Shown: positions 10,145 through 15,352 of the stretch, piece after piece | Layout: each line of letters opens with the position of its first letter | Numbering within the stretch: position 1 is the stretch's first letter | NCBI RefSeq assembly: GCF_021249345.1 | Contig: NZ_CP089588.1 | Coordinates: 2,232,001 to 2,296,000 of the forward strand | Length of the DNA: 64,000 nt | Direction: 5' to 3' | Source of the DNA: Halobacterium wangiae | Lineage (GTDB): Archaea > Halobacteriota > Halobacteria > Halobacteriales > Halobacteriaceae | Translations under genes and position numbers: made by a program | Notes under the pieces: generated by a model | What the model was told of the DNA's origin: nothing | The model's database searches: none | What the model saw: the letters and a program-made list of their open reading frames with translations, nothing else

Positions 10145-10221
10145 ACGTGCCTCTACCAGTGGACACAGCAAAAGCCCCGTGGCTGCTAGTTGCTTCCGGA
10201 ATGTGTTGATGGGGTTCCGTC

Positions 10222-10398
10222 GATTCGAACAGCTGAAAGCCCTCGATTCGCTCGACTCCCGGGGCTTGCTGCGCTCCTCGCCTTCGGCTGCGGTGCTTGC
10301 TTCGCCCGGGTTCGCCGGAAGACTCGCGTTGCTCGTCTTCCGAGCCATCCGCTCGCTTCGCTCGCGGAGACGCCGAGCGAACCTCGCCCTTTCAATCC
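10222..10398 (-). repeat. Hairpin element, copy C (minus strand)
   Basis: Read on the minus strand: GATT, GAAAG (10393-10389), a GGCGA internal loop, a 10-bp arm (10383-10374), about 120 nt of loop, the matching arm (10254-10245, one G-U pair), GAGGG, CTTTC (10239-10235) and, after a 9-nt bulge, AATC. This is the same order as copies A and B but with a different stem sequence, a 5x5 instead of 4x4 internal loop and a longer bulge, so membership is less sure. The long loop contains further hairpins, such as GGAAGAC...GTCTTCC. Confidence 0.5.
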
Positions 10399-10432
10399 GC
10401 CAGGAACCGGTTGACCAACTGGCCAACGGGAG

Positions 10433-10543
10433 GACTGAAAGGGGCGGGCGTGTCGACGACGGCGGACGATGCAAGCACGCGAGCGAAGCGAGCGCGCACA
10501 GCGAGTCCCCCGAGTCGACACGTCCGGGGCTTTCTGGGTAGTC
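10433..10543 (+). ncRNA. Hairpin element, copy A
   Basis: Structure read from the sequence: GACT (10433-10436), GAAAG (10437-10441), loop GGGC, 12-bp arm (10446-10457), 56-nt loop, matching arm (10514-10525, one G-U pair), GGGG, CTTTC (10530-10534), bulge TGGGT, AGTC (10540-10543). The flanking 20 nt upstream (ACCAACTG...ACGGGAGG) are also shared with copy B. The stem differs from copy B in several base pairs yet still pairs, which argues for selection on RNA or cruciform structure. Whether it is transcribed as a separate RNA is unknown. Confidence 0.55.
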
Positions 10544-10635
10544 TGCTAACCGATACCGAGTCGAGCAGCATAGTCAGATGCCACTAGGGTACGACGACCC
10601 AAAACAATATCCACAGGCCTCCCTAATCCCCGTCA

Positions 10636-11595
10636 ATGGCGACGTGTGACCGGTGTGGCGCCCAGGAATCGATGCCATACCAGTGTCGGCTCTGCGGCGG
10701 CACCTACTGCTCGGCGCATCGACTCCCCGAGAACCACGACTGTCCCGGACTGGACAGCTGGGGCGACCCGGACGGCGTCTTCGACAGCGGCTTCGACGAC
10801 AGCGTCGACAACCCCGGCGGGAGCCAGGGGAGTTTCGCCGACCGAATCTCCATCGACACGGGACGCGGCGGCGTGCTCGCGTACTTCCGCGGGAACTTCA
10901 CCTACCTCTTCCTCGGCCTGATGTGGGTGACGTTCCTCCTCCAGTTCGTCGTCGCGCCGGCTCTCGGCGTCGGGGCGTTCACCCGCGACTGGTACGCGCT
11001 GTTCACGGTCACCACCTCGAACCCGCTGTACGTGTGGACGTGGCTCACGTCCGTGTTCTCCCACGGCGGGTTCACTCACATCCTGTTGAACAGCATCGTG
11101 CTGTACTTCTTCGGCCCCGTGGTCGAGCAGCGCATCGGGTCGAAGAAGTTCGCCGCGCTGTTCGTCGCGGCGGGCGTGCTCGCCGGTCTCGCGCAGGTCG
11201 GCGCCTCGCTGTTGATGAACCCCTCGTGGTGGGGCCAGCCGCTGAACCCCGCGCTCAACGTCGGCTCCGCGGTGCTCGGCGCGAGCGGCGCCATCGCGTC
11301 GCTGCTCGGCGTGCTCACCGTGTTGAACCCGAACCTCCGGATCTACCTCTACTTCATCATCCCGATGCCGCTGTGGATCGCGACCGCGCTGTTCGCGGGC
11401 TACTCCATCCTGGTCTCCAGCGCCGGCGGCATCGGCGCCGGCGGCGTCGCACAGATCGCACACCTCGCCGGTCTGGGTCTCGGCCTGGCCTACGGCGCGA
11501 AGCTCAAGCGGGAGGGCGAGCGTGCACCCCGGCAGCTCCAGTTCGGCGGCGGGCGCGGGCCCGGTGGACCGGGCGGTCCGGGCCGCCGCCGCTGA
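10636..11595 (+). CDS. Rhomboid-family intramembrane serine protease with N-terminal AN1 zinc finger
   Basis: 319 residues. Residues about 4-36 form an AN1-type zinc finger (CDRCG, CRLCGGTYC, H-R-L, NHDC). A linker and six or so membrane spans follow, with the rhomboid signature: GGFTHILLNSIVLYFFGP, the serine in GASGA and the histidine in AHLAGLGLG (catalytic Ser-His pair). The tail is basic and Gly-rich. Rhomboids cut membrane proteins within the bilayer; substrates here are unknown. AN1-rhomboid fusions recur in haloarchaea. Endonuclease V starts one base after its stop, so both are probably on one transcript. Confidence 0.93.
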   Translation: MATCDRCGAQESMPYQCRLCGGTYCSAHRLPENHDCPGLDSWGDPDGVFDSGFDDSVDNPGGSQGSFADRISIDTGRGGVLAYFRGNFTYLFLGLMWVTFLLQFVVAPALGVGAFTRDWYALFTVTTSNPLYVWTWLTSVFSHGGFTHILLNSIVLYFFGPVVEQRIGSKKFAALFVAAGVLAGLAQVGASLLMNPSWWGQPLNPALNVGSAVLGASGAIASLLGVLTVLNPNLRIYLYFIIPMPLWIATALFAGYSILVSSAGGIGAGGVAQIAHLAGLGLGLAYGAKLKREGERAPRQLQFGGGRGPGGPGGPGRRR

Positions 11596-11596
11596 G

Positions 11597-12379
11597 ATGC
11601 GCGTCGTCCACCCCGAGTACCTCCCCGACGCCGCGCTCTCCCGCGCGGAGATGGAGCGCCTGCAGCGCGAACTCGCGGCCGACGCTATCTTCGAGGACGG
11701 TATCGATTTCGACCCGGTGGACGCGGCGCTCTCGGCGACGCCCGACGAGCAGACGGCTCTGACTGTCAGCGACGCCCCAGTCGTCGTCGGCGTCGACCAG
11801 GCGTTCCTCGACGCGGAGTCCGTGAGTGCCGCGGTCGCGATCCGGGCCGGCGCCGTCGTCGAGCGTGCCGCGGGCCGTGCACCACTCGAGATTCCCTACA
11901 TCCCGGGCCTGCTCTCGTTCCGGGAGGGCGCCGCCATCGTAGACGCCCTGGAGTCGCTGACCGTCGACCCGGACGTGCTCGTCCTCGACGGCAGCGGCCG
12001 CATCCACTTCCGGCAGGCCGGAATCGCCACGCACGTCGGCGTCCTCTTCGACGTCCCCGCAGTCGGCGTGGCGAAGAACCTGCTCTGTGGATCGCCCCGC
12101 ACCGCACTCGACGACCCGCTCCCCGAGGGCGCCCGCGTCGCCATCGAGGCCGACGACTCGATGGACGCACCAGCGGGGACGGTGGTCGGCTACGCCTACC
12201 AGTCCCGGCAGTACCCGAACCCCGGGACGCGGTACGTCAACCCCCTCATCGTCAGCCCCGGCCACCGCGTGAACGCGGAGACTGCGGTGGACGTCGTCGA
12301 GGCGACCTGCACGGGCTACAAACTCCCCGAACCCACACGGTTGGCGGACGCGTACGCGGACGAACTGAAGTCCGAGTGA
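11597..12379 (+). CDS. nfi: Endonuclease V (deoxyinosine 3'-endonuclease)
   Basis: 260 residues starting MRVVHPEYLPDAAL; the ATG comes one base after the rhomboid stop. Endonuclease V nicks DNA (or RNA) next to inosine arising from adenine deamination. The metal-binding acidic residues are visible with family spacing: D67 in VGVDQAF, E110 in IPGLLSFREG and D131 in LVLDGSGRIH; the lysine motif GVAKNLL follows. The usual HPR after the third Asp is HFR here. An in-frame upstream ATG lies inside the rhomboid gene and would give a Ser/Ala-rich extension, so it is rejected. Confidence 0.93.
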   Translation: MRVVHPEYLPDAALSRAEMERLQRELAADAIFEDGIDFDPVDAALSATPDEQTALTVSDAPVVVGVDQAFLDAESVSAAVAIRAGAVVERAAGRAPLEIPYIPGLLSFREGAAIVDALESLTVDPDVLVLDGSGRIHFRQAGIATHVGVLFDVPAVGVAKNLLCGSPRTALDDPLPEGARVAIEADDSMDAPAGTVVGYAYQSRQYPNPGTRYVNPLIVSPGHRVNAETAVDVVEATCTGYKLPEPTRLADAYADELKSE

Positions 12380-12397
12380 CCAACTGCCCGACGGGAG

Positions 12398-12513
12398 GAC
12401 TGAAAGGGGCGGCGTGCTCGCGTTCACCTGTTCGCTCGCGACGCAAGCACCGAACGAAGTGAGGCGCACAGCGAGCGAGCGGACGCGAGCACGCCGGGAC
12501 TTTCTGAGTAGTC
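12398..12513 (+). ncRNA. Hairpin element, copy B
   Basis: Immediately downstream of endonuclease V. Order: GACT (12398-12401), GAAAG (12402-12406), GGGC, 12-bp arm (12411-12422), 61-nt loop, perfectly matching arm (12484-12495), GGGA, CTTTC (12500-12504), bulge TGAGT, AGTC (12510-12513). The architecture, including the four-base internal loop and five-base bulge, equals copy A, while the stem bases differ in compensating pairs. The loop shares GCAAGCAC and CGCACAGCGAG with copy A. It could be a small RNA or a 3'-end structure of the upstream operon. Confidence 0.55.
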
Positions 12514-12621: not shown

Positions 12622-13440
12622 ATGGAGAAGGTCGCGCTCATCACTGGTTGTTCGTCGGGTATCGGCGACGCGACGGCGCGCTCGCTGCTCGACGAGGAGT
12701 GGACGGTCGTCGCCACCGCACGCGACACCGACGACGTCGCGGCGCTCGCGGAAGCCGGCTGTGACACGGCCGAACTCGACGTGACGAAGCCGGCGCAGTG
12801 TGAGAACGTCGTCGAGGACATCGTCGACCGCCACGGCCGACTTGACTGCCTCGTCAACAACGCGGGGTACGCACAGCTGGGGCCGCTGGAGGACGTACCG
12901 ACGCGGGCGCTCCACCGCCAGTTCGACGTGAACGTCTACGGGCCACACCGCCTCGTCCGGGCGGCGCTGCCACACATGCGGAACCGCGGTGACGGGACCA
13001 TCGTGAACGTCTCCAGCGTCGCCGGCCGCGTCGCCACGCCCGGGATGGGTGCGTACAACGGCTCGAAGTTCGCGCTCGAGGGGATGAGCGACGCGCTCCG
13101 CGGTGAGGTCTCGCAGTTCGGCGTCGACGTCGCACTCGTCGAACCCGGGCCCGTGGAGACGTCGTTCACCGAGCGCGCGGAGCGCCAGGTCGACGACCTC
13201 GATCCGAGTGGCGTCTACGAGACCATCTATCGGTTCTTCGAGGACGCGAGCGCCGTCAACGGCGTCGGCGCCGTTCCACCCGAGCGCGTCGCCGAGGTCA
13301 TCACCGAGGCGGCGGTCAGCACGGACCCGAAGGCCCGCTACCCGGTCGCGCGCGCCGGCAAGTACGGCGTCGCCGCACGCTTCCTCCCGAGTAGCTGGCT
13401 CGACTCCGTCTACGGCCTCGCGCTGAAGTACCTCCACTGA
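12622..13440 (+). CDS. SDR-family NAD(P)-dependent oxidoreductase
   Basis: 272 residues, classical short-chain dehydrogenase. The cofactor motif TGCSSGIG (residues 8-15), the NNAG motif (about 75-78), the catalytic Ser of NVSSVAG and the YNGSK pair (Y-x-x-x-K) are all present, followed by EPGPVETSF. An Arg after the second strand (TARDTDD) hints at NADP(H). The substrate cannot be read from sequence. A GTTAACT box at about 12592-12598 lies 27 nt before the ATG, pointing to a leaderless transcript. It is a single-gene unit between the hairpin element and a small lipoprotein. Confidence 0.9.
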   Translation: MEKVALITGCSSGIGDATARSLLDEEWTVVATARDTDDVAALAEAGCDTAELDVTKPAQCENVVEDIVDRHGRLDCLVNNAGYAQLGPLEDVPTRALHRQFDVNVYGPHRLVRAALPHMRNRGDGTIVNVSSVAGRVATPGMGAYNGSKFALEGMSDALRGEVSQFGVDVALVEPGPVETSFTERAERQVDDLDPSGVYETIYRFFEDASAVNGVGAVPPERVAEVITEAAVSTDPKARYPVARAGKYGVAARFLPSSWLDSVYGLALKYLH

Positions 13441-13909: not shown

Positions 13910-15139
13910 CTACAGTCGCTGCTGCGTCGGCGGCTCCTGGAACGCACTACTCGCGGATTCGAAGCTGGATGCGCCGCCGTAGACGCCCGACGACTGACTC
14001 ATCGGCTGCTGGGACGTCTGCTGTGGTGGGAACTGCTGCTGTGGCGGGAGCTGGCTCTGTTGCTGGGGCGTCTGCTGTGGTGGGAGCTGGCTCTGCTGCT
14101 GCGACCCGAAGGGCGGCTGCTGCTGGGACGGAACCGGGCGCTGCTGCTGTGGCGGGGCCTGGCTCTGCTGCTGGGGTCCCTGCTGCTGGGGCGTCTGCTG
14201 CTGGGGCGTCTGCTGTGGTGGGAGCTGGCTCTGCTGCTGTGACTGGAGCGGCCGCTGCTGGGGCGGTTGCTGGGGCGGGCGCTGTCGCTGCTGGGACTGG
14301 AACGAGCCCTGCTGCTGACCGACTCCCCTCGAGCCACCCTGGAGCGAGCCCTGGGAGGCCTCGATCGGCTGGGCGACGTCCTGCGGCATGCTCTGGGGTG
14401 CGCTGATCGGTGCCGAAATGTCCTGTGGCACACCCTGCGCTGGCGCCATCGCCTGGGGAGGACCCGTCTGGATCTCTATCTGCGAGGTAGGGCTCCCGGA
14501 GCCGGAGACCGACCGGCTGGCGGCCTCCTCGCCGCCGAGACTCTGCCCAGTGCTGCCCTTCGCCGAGGTTCCCTGGGCCTGGCCCATCGTCGCCGGCACC
14601 TGGCTCCGGACCTCCATCTGGAGGTGGGATTCGAGCACGTAGAGCTGCTTGTCCACCTCGCGGGAGATCTCGGTGAGCAGGTCGGCGGTGTCCTCGTCAC
14701 CGAGCCCGGCCGCCTGATCGATCGCCTCCCGGAGGAAGCTCGCGTGGCGGCCGACGTGGTCGGCCAGCCACTCGATGTACTCGACTTCGTCGACCGCTTC
14801 GACCGGCGGCTCCGGGATGCGGCTGGTGCTGGCCGCGATGCGGGTCGTCCCAACTGCCTGGCCCCCGAGGGCGGTGGCGCGTTCGGCGAGCAGGTCGACG
14901 TGCTCGGAGAGCTCTTCCGCGATCTCGTCGAACAGCAGGTGGAGCTGGAAGAAGTCCGGGCCCTTGACGTTCCAGTGGGCGAACTTGGCCTGGGACCGCA
15001 GGTCGGTGGTGTCGGCGAGTACCTGATTCAGCGTCTGGATCACCGGAACACGGCTCTCCTCCGGGAGATTGACGGCTGTACTGTAGAGGTTCGTCTGCGG
15101 GTTGCTCGTACTCGACGCTCGTTGTTGTTTCTGTGACAT
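13910..15139 (-). CDS. dps: Dps ferritin-like protein with long Gln/Pro-rich C-terminal tail
   Basis: 409 residues. Residues about 15-185 are a Dps domain (iron-oxidising, DNA-protecting 12-mer in the family). The inter-subunit ferroxidase ligands fit the E. coli spacing exactly: H55 in AHWNVKG, H67, D71, D82 and E86. Dps usually ends here; this protein adds about 220 residues. Residues 275-379 are about half glutamine with Pro and Ser, built from near-repeats such as QSQLPPQQTPQQQ, and no Asp or Glu occurs from 261 to 393, remarkable for a haloarchaeal protein. A Ser/Gly/Tyr/Phe end follows. ATG 15139 is chosen because a GGAGGT ribosome site lies nine bases upstream. The tail resembles prion-like low-complexity regions; its role is unknown. 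Confidence 0.9.
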   Translation of the reverse strand: MSQKQQRASSTSNPQTNLYSTAVNLPEESRVPVIQTLNQVLADTTDLRSQAKFAHWNVKGPDFFQLHLLFDEIAEELSEHVDLLAERATALGGQAVGTTRIAASTSRIPEPPVEAVDEVEYIEWLADHVGRHASFLREAIDQAAGLGDEDTADLLTEISREVDKQLYVLESHLQMEVRSQVPATMGQAQGTSAKGSTGQSLGGEEAASRSVSGSGSPTSQIEIQTGPPQAMAPAQGVPQDISAPISAPQSMPQDVAQPIEASQGSLQGGSRGVGQQQGSFQSQQRQRPPQQPPQQRPLQSQQQSQLPPQQTPQQQTPQQQGPQQQSQAPPQQQRPVPSQQQPPFGSQQQSQLPPQQTPQQQSQLPPQQQFPPQQTSQQPMSQSSGVYGGASSFESASSAFQEPPTQQRL

Positions 15140-15156
15140 GTGGAGTAGACCTCCAC
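15140..15156 (-). promoter_or_regulatory. Hairpin covering the dps ribosome-binding site
   Basis: On the dps strand the bases directly before the ATG read GTGGAG-GTCTA-CTCCAC, a perfect 6-bp stem with a five-base loop. The Shine-Dalgarno element GGAGGT (15154-15149) falls largely in the 5' arm and would be masked when the stem forms. This suggests control of translation, for example by ion strength, temperature or a bound factor. Inference from sequence only. Confidence 0.45.
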
Positions 15157-15352
15157 CGTTCACTGACGGCGATTGCATGGAAAACTGTACTCCGCATGTT
15201 GTTCCCAACTACTCTCCACTCCGGGACTTCGCCTCGGTATCAGATACGAATTCTTACACGACTGGGGAATGCACGTCGATGGCGTGCCGTGAGCGAAGCG
15301 TACCTCGGGGGCTCTTCGGCGTTTTCCGACGCTCGTCCCAGGAGACACCGCA

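Follow-up and report, generated by a model that had tools for sequence, protein, structure and literature searches.

The REPIN/BIME elements of bacteria are head-to-head hairpins that lie between genes in many copies, and integron attC sites join conserved end boxes to freely varying stems that still pair, with one strand folded. In haloarchaea, the IS6 insertion sequences ISH14 and ISH29 measure 696-697 bp and produce 8-bp duplications, and ISfinder lists an IS6 MITE under the name MITEHarch3 (excerpts of PMC6807381 and PMC7986276). The MITEs, PATEs and SMRs of Haloquadratum are, like the elements studied here, small transposase-free mobile haloarchaeal repeats, and they insert into one another (excerpts of PMC3119063). 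Among titles and abstract openings in the open PMC literature, no description of the present hairpin family was found.

The window, the whole 64,000-nucleotide stretch analysed here (G000:C1:2232001-2296000), belongs to the 3.11-Mb genome of Halobacterium wangiae (G000). It contains three hairpin copies, two on the plus strand and one on the minus strand (Table 1). Copies 1 and 3 had been described in a sequence-only reading, and their coordinates and folding confirmed both position and fold. In each, P1 (GAAAG/CTTTC) is followed by a 3-vs-3-base internal loop and a long variable stem, and a GACT/AGTC pair spans a five-base bulge. Their folding energies were better than those of 200/200 dinucleotide shuffles. 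Copy 2 has an extra arm that enlarges its inner part, and the covariance model R1 placed it only partially, at 10221-10372 (56.8 bits). Spacers like that between copies 1 and 2 were also found within other head-to-head pairs. The boundary of a possible unit around this pair is modelled on the CTAG pair units of Haloarcula. The dispersed family proved real and larger than the sequence-only reading had proposed, with the third window copy and about 35 copies in G000 (40 R1 matches at E <= 1; 35 at E <= 0.01). GGGAGGACTGAAAGGG with at most two mismatches occurred at 20 places in this genome versus 2 for the reversed control. The same reading took GACT/AGTC as a hallmark, but AGTC stood at that place in only three printed G000 copies, the two in the window and G000:C1:404730-404870, and the other printed 3' flanks differed. 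The terminal AGTC box is therefore not conserved, and that portion of the argument fails. The boxes actually conserved across the family are GGNGGACTGAAAGGGGC, GACGCAAGCAC, GCGCACAGCGAG and NGGGGCTTTC.

Table 1. Hairpin copies and associated features, in window coordinates.
Feature	Position	Strand	Details
Hairpin copy 1	10428..10543	+	R1 125.9 bits; fold z -3.9
Copy 1 boxes	P1 GAAAG 10437-10441 with CTTTC 10530-10534		5' box GGGAGGACT, 3' tail TGGGTAGTC
Hairpin copy 2	~10235..10402	-	Boxes and fold; head to head with copy 1
Spacer separating the 5' boxes of copies 1 and 2	10403..10427	.	Imperfect palindrome GGTTGACCAACTGG at 10409-10422
Hairpin copy 3 (second copy of the sequence-only reading)	12393..12513	+	R1 116.2 bits; fold z -5.4
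Copy 3 P1	GAAAG 12402-12406 with CTTTC 12500-12504	+	
Sequence common to copies 1 and 3	From 10433 and 12398		GACTGAAAGGGGCGG
3' side, copy 1	From 10530		CTTTCTGGGTAGTC
3' side, copy 3	From 12500		CTTTCTGAGTAGTC
Leader	From 10414 and 12379		ACCAACTG
Leader	From 10426 and 12391		ACGGGAGG
Possible unit enclosing the pair	10186..10587	.	CTAG at 10186-10189 and 10584-10587

The element is a roughly 110-nt rod with a nearly invariant P1. Inside P1 lie a symmetric GGG/GGG loop and then a 12-bp P2 of freely varying sequence, while conserved loops rich in purines, around GACGCAAGCAC and GCGCACAGCGAG, set P3-P5 apart. R1 was built on 14 G000 copies, in which 96.1% of 465 stem cells paired and 18/34 pairs showed two-sided changes; the covariation score was 0.495, versus 0.122 for shuffled and at most 0.079 for slid controls. 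Among 117 copies from 81 loci in many genera, 95.5% of stem cells paired, two-sided changes occurred at 27/34 pairs, and the score was 0.477 versus 0.128 shuffled in an alignment fitted to the model. With the model built, haloarchaeal genomes scanned and covarying pairs counted, the proposed compensatory change in the stems is strongly supported, as is the common origin of the copies. Conserved structure with covariation, as expected of a structured RNA, was found, and the hairpin might be one. Rfam gave no match in the window at gathering score, and in six loci its matches were all sub-threshold. A CRISPR link was dropped, as the single CRISPR-DR15 match, in one locus, fell below the gathering score and was judged chance.

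R1 matched 30 of 40 genomes (G000 and relatives). Copy number ranged from 0 (G007) to 55 (G011) inside the genus Halobacterium, and from 3 to 116 in 20 named-locus genomes selected for an existing hit, with the highest counts in Haloglomus halophilum (116), Salinarchaeum laminariae (108), Haloarcula rara (99) and Halonotius roseus (95); the laboratory strain Haloarcula japonica DSM 6131 had 16. A phylum sample, under stricter filters and with non-matching genomes without a listing assumed to lie outside the order, contained the family in 29/33 genomes of the same order or closer and in 0/163 others. A structural pattern scan of genome contigs yielded at least 80 loci; all 80 listed were from Halobacteria, some of them plasmid-borne, and the matches in plasmid records were haloarchaeal in 8/8 cases. 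The family is confined to Halobacteria. One hairpin is found in both a Natribaculum breve plasmid (L083) and a Natrinema hispanicum contig (L120); the printed flanks are identical, suggesting that the DNA around it was recently exchanged across genera. Carriage by viruses was considered and rejected: the structural pattern hit one viral contig whose sequence was unlike the element, the exact 5' box had no match among viral contigs, the terminal-repeat pattern gave 35 matches there, judged near chance, and phage BLAST returned only four partial mycobacteriophage matches, judged chance.

Units of ~130-400 bp in Halonotius and in some uncultured genomes (type I) have the hairpin as their body, either one copy or two head to head. 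They end in the inverted repeats GGTAGTGTTCAGATA...CTGAACACTACC and show 8-bp target duplications. Pair units of Halonotius roseus have the outer ends ...TCTGAACAGTACC and ...TCTGAACACGACC, and MAG QS_9_67_17 contains many ~215-bp units with one hairpin between these terminal repeats. The duplication matched at 8/8 bases in L354, a 267-bp Halonotius hairpin unit. In a separate comparison it matched at 8/8 in L313 (QS_9), at 7/8 in L316 (Halonotius) and at 7/8 twice in L304 (QS_9), with all remaining rows at 6/8 or less. At 5/16 Halonotius loci with both ends found, at least eight bases were common to both sides. Exact or 7/8 matches were a minority, and the duplication was eroded or not recognisable in most examined units. 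A 696-bp Halonotius element (L368) has ends of the same kind, a duplication CTAGTACC and a 213-aa ORF that scored 189 bits against the IS6 transposase model of NCBIfam, whose cut-off is 125, and 35 bits against PF13610; ISH14 has the same length (excerpts of PMC6807381 and PMC7986276). In Halonotius roseus, the transposase frame is open in L368 (134-830), and L361 (106-802) is a broken copy of the same length.

IS6-type ends (at least 9/12 bases) were present at 31/31 flanks in Halonotius, 14/18 in QS_9, 4/5 in QH_7 and 25/81 in the 'other' group, and at 3/41 in Haloarcula rara and 1/58 in Halobacterium, in a comparison that also held five further small groups. A DL31 plasmid copy sits in a unit of ~353 bp with such ends. 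IS6-like terminal inverted repeats with a matching insertion sequence (L368) were found for Halonotius and QS_9 only, and 8-bp target duplications, as in IS6-family MITEs, were found in both. Ends, duplications and the matching 696-bp element together identify the type I units as MITEs, which is a vehicle of a known kind, most simply moved in trans by an IS6-type transposase. An IS1595-type transposase was rejected as the mover, PF12762 being absent from both genomes searched (0/2; G042, G060). The sampled copies reached best-partner identities of 0.99 in Halonotius and 0.97 in QS_9. The idea that stems diverge quicker than their flanks was not supported in Halonotius, where the stems form two subfamilies (30 of 34 rows compared).

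The units of Haloarcula and Halobacterium (type II) were often bordered by CTAG, which occurred in 25/41 flanks of Haloarcula rara and 19/58 of Halobacterium, against an expected ~0.04 per flank window. Six distinct Haloarcula pair units of 335-473 bp ran from CTAG to CTAG (seven rows, one site appearing twice). At one Haloarcula locus followed across 32 genomes, G040 had a CTAG-bounded unit, G267 a short remnant between the same CTAGs, and most other readable genomes no unit. Seven nested 3' tails of the form CTAG|CGGGGCTTTC, with at most one mismatch, were seen at Haloarcula rara loci. At four of its loci (L267, L273, L279 and L141), CTAG was followed directly by CGGGGCTTTCTGGC, and truncated tails lay behind complete units. 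The stacking gives the impression that an older hairpin was overwritten by a new unit.

In the genus of the window, relatives of the L368 transposase were absent from G000, G001, G005 and G008; G007 had such relatives and no hairpins. G000 thus offered no transposase source for an IS6 MITE. IS6-type ends were found at 0/15 G000 flanks (mean best match 7.3 versus 7.0 shuffled), and the window copies are therefore not classed as IS6 MITEs. Their mobility accordingly rests on their relatives and on presence or absence between species. The earlier proposal of a hairpin mobile element thus held for relatives in other genera, which have the ends, the 8-bp duplications and the IS6 element, and would extend to the window copies by inference. 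Best-partner identity was at most 0.87 in G000 and G001 among sampled copies, a set limited to those that fit a strict pattern of boxes (15 of them in G000, for example). The window copies appear old rather than recently made by an L368-type transposase, yet their fold is intact.

Occupancy was compared at two sites. Site 1, before a gene that we take to be rhomboid-like, holds the pair in G000, G001, G004, G009 and G011. A short, empty site is found in G003, G005, G007 and G008, and a longer one with no hairpin seen in G012; gene order differs in G002 and G010, and coverage did not extend to G006. Site 2, before 12622, carries the hairpin in G000 and G008. G001 has a 3' remnant there, and a short, empty site is seen in G002, G003, G004, G006, G007, G011 and G012. 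G005, G009 and G010 have a gene-sized insert in place of the hairpin. This insert (L240, L239 and L237, respectively), ~0.95 kb between genes matching window 11600-12379 and 12622-13440, looks like a lipoprotein-type gene. Further along the window, a 432-aa frame on the minus strand (13910-15208) presumably begins with a Dps/ferritin-like part, and it ends in a long C-terminal tail rich in glutamine and proline.

Many syntenic sites are common to G000 and G001. Ten ortholog pairs between these genomes had identities of 0.67-0.91. Two of them, at 0.89 and 0.91, appear to be genuine descendants, and the other eight hardly exceeded, or did not exceed, the identity of non-orthologous copies (0.73 +- 0.05). 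Most of their 3' flanks were near the shuffled level, and the genes bordering units were 85-100% identical right to the unit in most windows. Summed over 14 of 21 ortholog comparisons, several of which share a locus and are not independent, 307 pairs were unchanged and 116 had changed on both sides and still paired; one-sided changes left 16 paired and 20 broken, both-sided changes broke 7, and 10 were gaps. The ortholog divergence, the well-kept bordering genes and the seven nested 3' tails together make it more likely that whole cassettes were replaced at existing slots than that they changed gradually, although rapid neutral divergence of the intergenic DNA may also account for the pattern.

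Genes were predicted with a codon-based caller, and context was tabulated for 87 of the 117 matches. All but one (86/87) lay outside called genes. The downstream gene was co-directed in 53 cases, opposed in 32 and unknown in 2, and the upstream gene co-directed in 33, opposed in 52 and unknown in 2. When the downstream gene was co-directed, the element often ended 70-110 nt before its start, which would place this end just above the expected promoter position. Each Pfam family was found in at most 3 of the 84 neighbouring proteins; no shared function emerged, and a cis-linked gene was rejected.

Mismatches in the stems were asymmetric. The fitted alignment contained 97 G.T/T.G versus 28 A.C/C.A among 3760 cells, and a model-free positional reading of the P2 arms of 259 elements gave 62 G.T versus 23 A.C among 3108 (p = 2.8e-5). 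A process acting on the duplex should give equal counts, so one strand seems to be folded; strand-biased mutation is an alternative source of the G.T excess. This asymmetry does not discriminate RNA from single-stranded DNA. The low overall G.U rate (2-3%) was dropped as proof of DNA, because 20 tRNA acceptor stems showed a similar rate (5/140).

Taken together, we consider it probable that the copies form one haloarchaeal family of structured hairpin modules, which small non-autonomous transposable elements carry as their body. For type I, the identification as a MITE-like family whose body is structured has good support, and it is extended to the window by inference. The ~110-nt module, single or as a head-to-head pair, would ride MITE-like vehicles, of which an IS6-type transposase would move type I units in trans and another enzyme may have moved the Haloarcula and Halobacterium units, often CTAG-bounded. 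Incoming units would tend to land on slots already in use and overwrite the resident unit, whose truncated 3' tail stays behind. Least certainly, the strand GGNGGACTGAAAGGGG...GGGGCTTTC may fold, as RNA or single-stranded DNA, and be bound by a putative trans-acting protein whose recognition could preserve the complementarity of the arms and the constancy of the inner loops; such recognition is our best guess, with RNA and single-stranded DNA about equally likely. In Halobacterium and Haloarcula, the hairpin is present or absent at the same gene boundaries between species, and the fold was kept while adjacent non-coding sequence diverged to near the shuffled level. Against this explanation, DDE transposition via terminal repeats needs no folded body by itself, target duplications were shown for IS6-type units and for none of the CTAG units, most examined units have an eroded or unrecognisable duplication, and G000 has neither IS6-type ends at its flanks nor a relative of the L368 transposase. 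A possible though rather doubtful variant is an independent module exchanged as whole cassettes on different vehicles, with IS6-type ends in some haloarchaea and CTAG units elsewhere, each new cassette overwriting the old. Here one strand would form a rod or G-quadruplex read by a putative trans-acting protein, and the conserved G-runs (GG-N-GG, and GGGG with GGGG around P1) could provide the alternative G-quadruplex in the potassium-rich cytoplasm of haloarchaea.

Domestication, in which the hairpins are host-beneficial structured RNAs or DNA sites acting in cis near a promoter or gene boundary and maintained through host selection, seems unlikely to us. It would suit the persistence of the fold in Halobacterium, where the IS6 transposase is absent and the sampled copies include no near-identical recent ones, the many sites syntenic between G000 and G001, and the frequent position 70-110 nt before a co-directed gene. 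However, at the same sites several congeners have intact genes and no hairpin, copy number runs from 0 to 55 inside one genus, orientation to the neighbouring gene is only mildly biased (53 to 32), and the neighbours have no common function. The pairing could instead come from DNA repair, with template switching in imperfect palindromes copying arm onto arm and no selection on the fold. DNA-level rearrangement within palindromes does happen: in L239 (G009, site 1) and in L023 1658-1786 (G000), the inner part is inverted relative to the outer stem, and the outer stem of L239 is a perfect palindrome, GAAAGCCCC...GGGGCTTTC, from which the GGG/GGG loop is gone. One-sided changes are also few. Yet template switching should erase internal loops, and the GGG/GGG and inner purine loops are conserved, which argues that such rearrangement is not the main cause of pairing; the excess of G.T over A.C is likewise not predicted by a duplex-level process. 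We regard this account as improbable. More improbable still is a REPIN/BIME- or PATE-like element moved as single-stranded DNA by a hairpin-recognising Y1 transposase (RAYT or IS200/IS605). The head-to-head pairs, the single-strand asymmetry and the intergenic position resemble REPINs. Palindrome-bearing PATEs do occur in Haloquadratum, but they are without the inverted-repeat ends and the duplications (excerpts of PMC3119063) that Halonotius and QS_9 display, where the duplications are 8 bp long. The absence of both features that marks PATE and IS200/IS605 elements was thus not seen in IS6-type units; the CTAG units might still be moved by a Y1 enzyme.

A transposon body that covaries in this way across a whole class is hard to explain by end-mediated transposition alone. 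It provides, per genome, dozens of natural variants for relating structure to function, and it may lead to a new haloarchaeal system that binds RNA or single-stranded DNA. The family also marks an annotation gap, being present in 29/33 sampled genomes of the order and without an Rfam match in the window.

Several known systems resemble these elements in part. Bacterial REPIN/BIME elements differ from the present ~110-nt hairpin with its conserved inner loops, some units of which have inverted-repeat ends and 8-bp duplications. The attC sites are arrayed, whereas the hairpin copies are dispersed over the genome. PATEs are described as having end palindromes and lacking inverted repeats and duplications, and SMRs as causing no duplications (excerpts of PMC3119063). 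The IS6-family MITEs (MITEHarch3, MITEBth2; excerpts of PMC6807381 and PMC7986276) are matched by the Halonotius and QS_9 units in their ends, 8-bp duplication and lack of a gene. MITEHarch3 may itself carry this hairpin, as the DL31 unit comes from the same strain. In contrast to IS6 MITEs, however, the family described here is a covarying structured rod found across the class, also where IS6-type ends or that transposase are absent.
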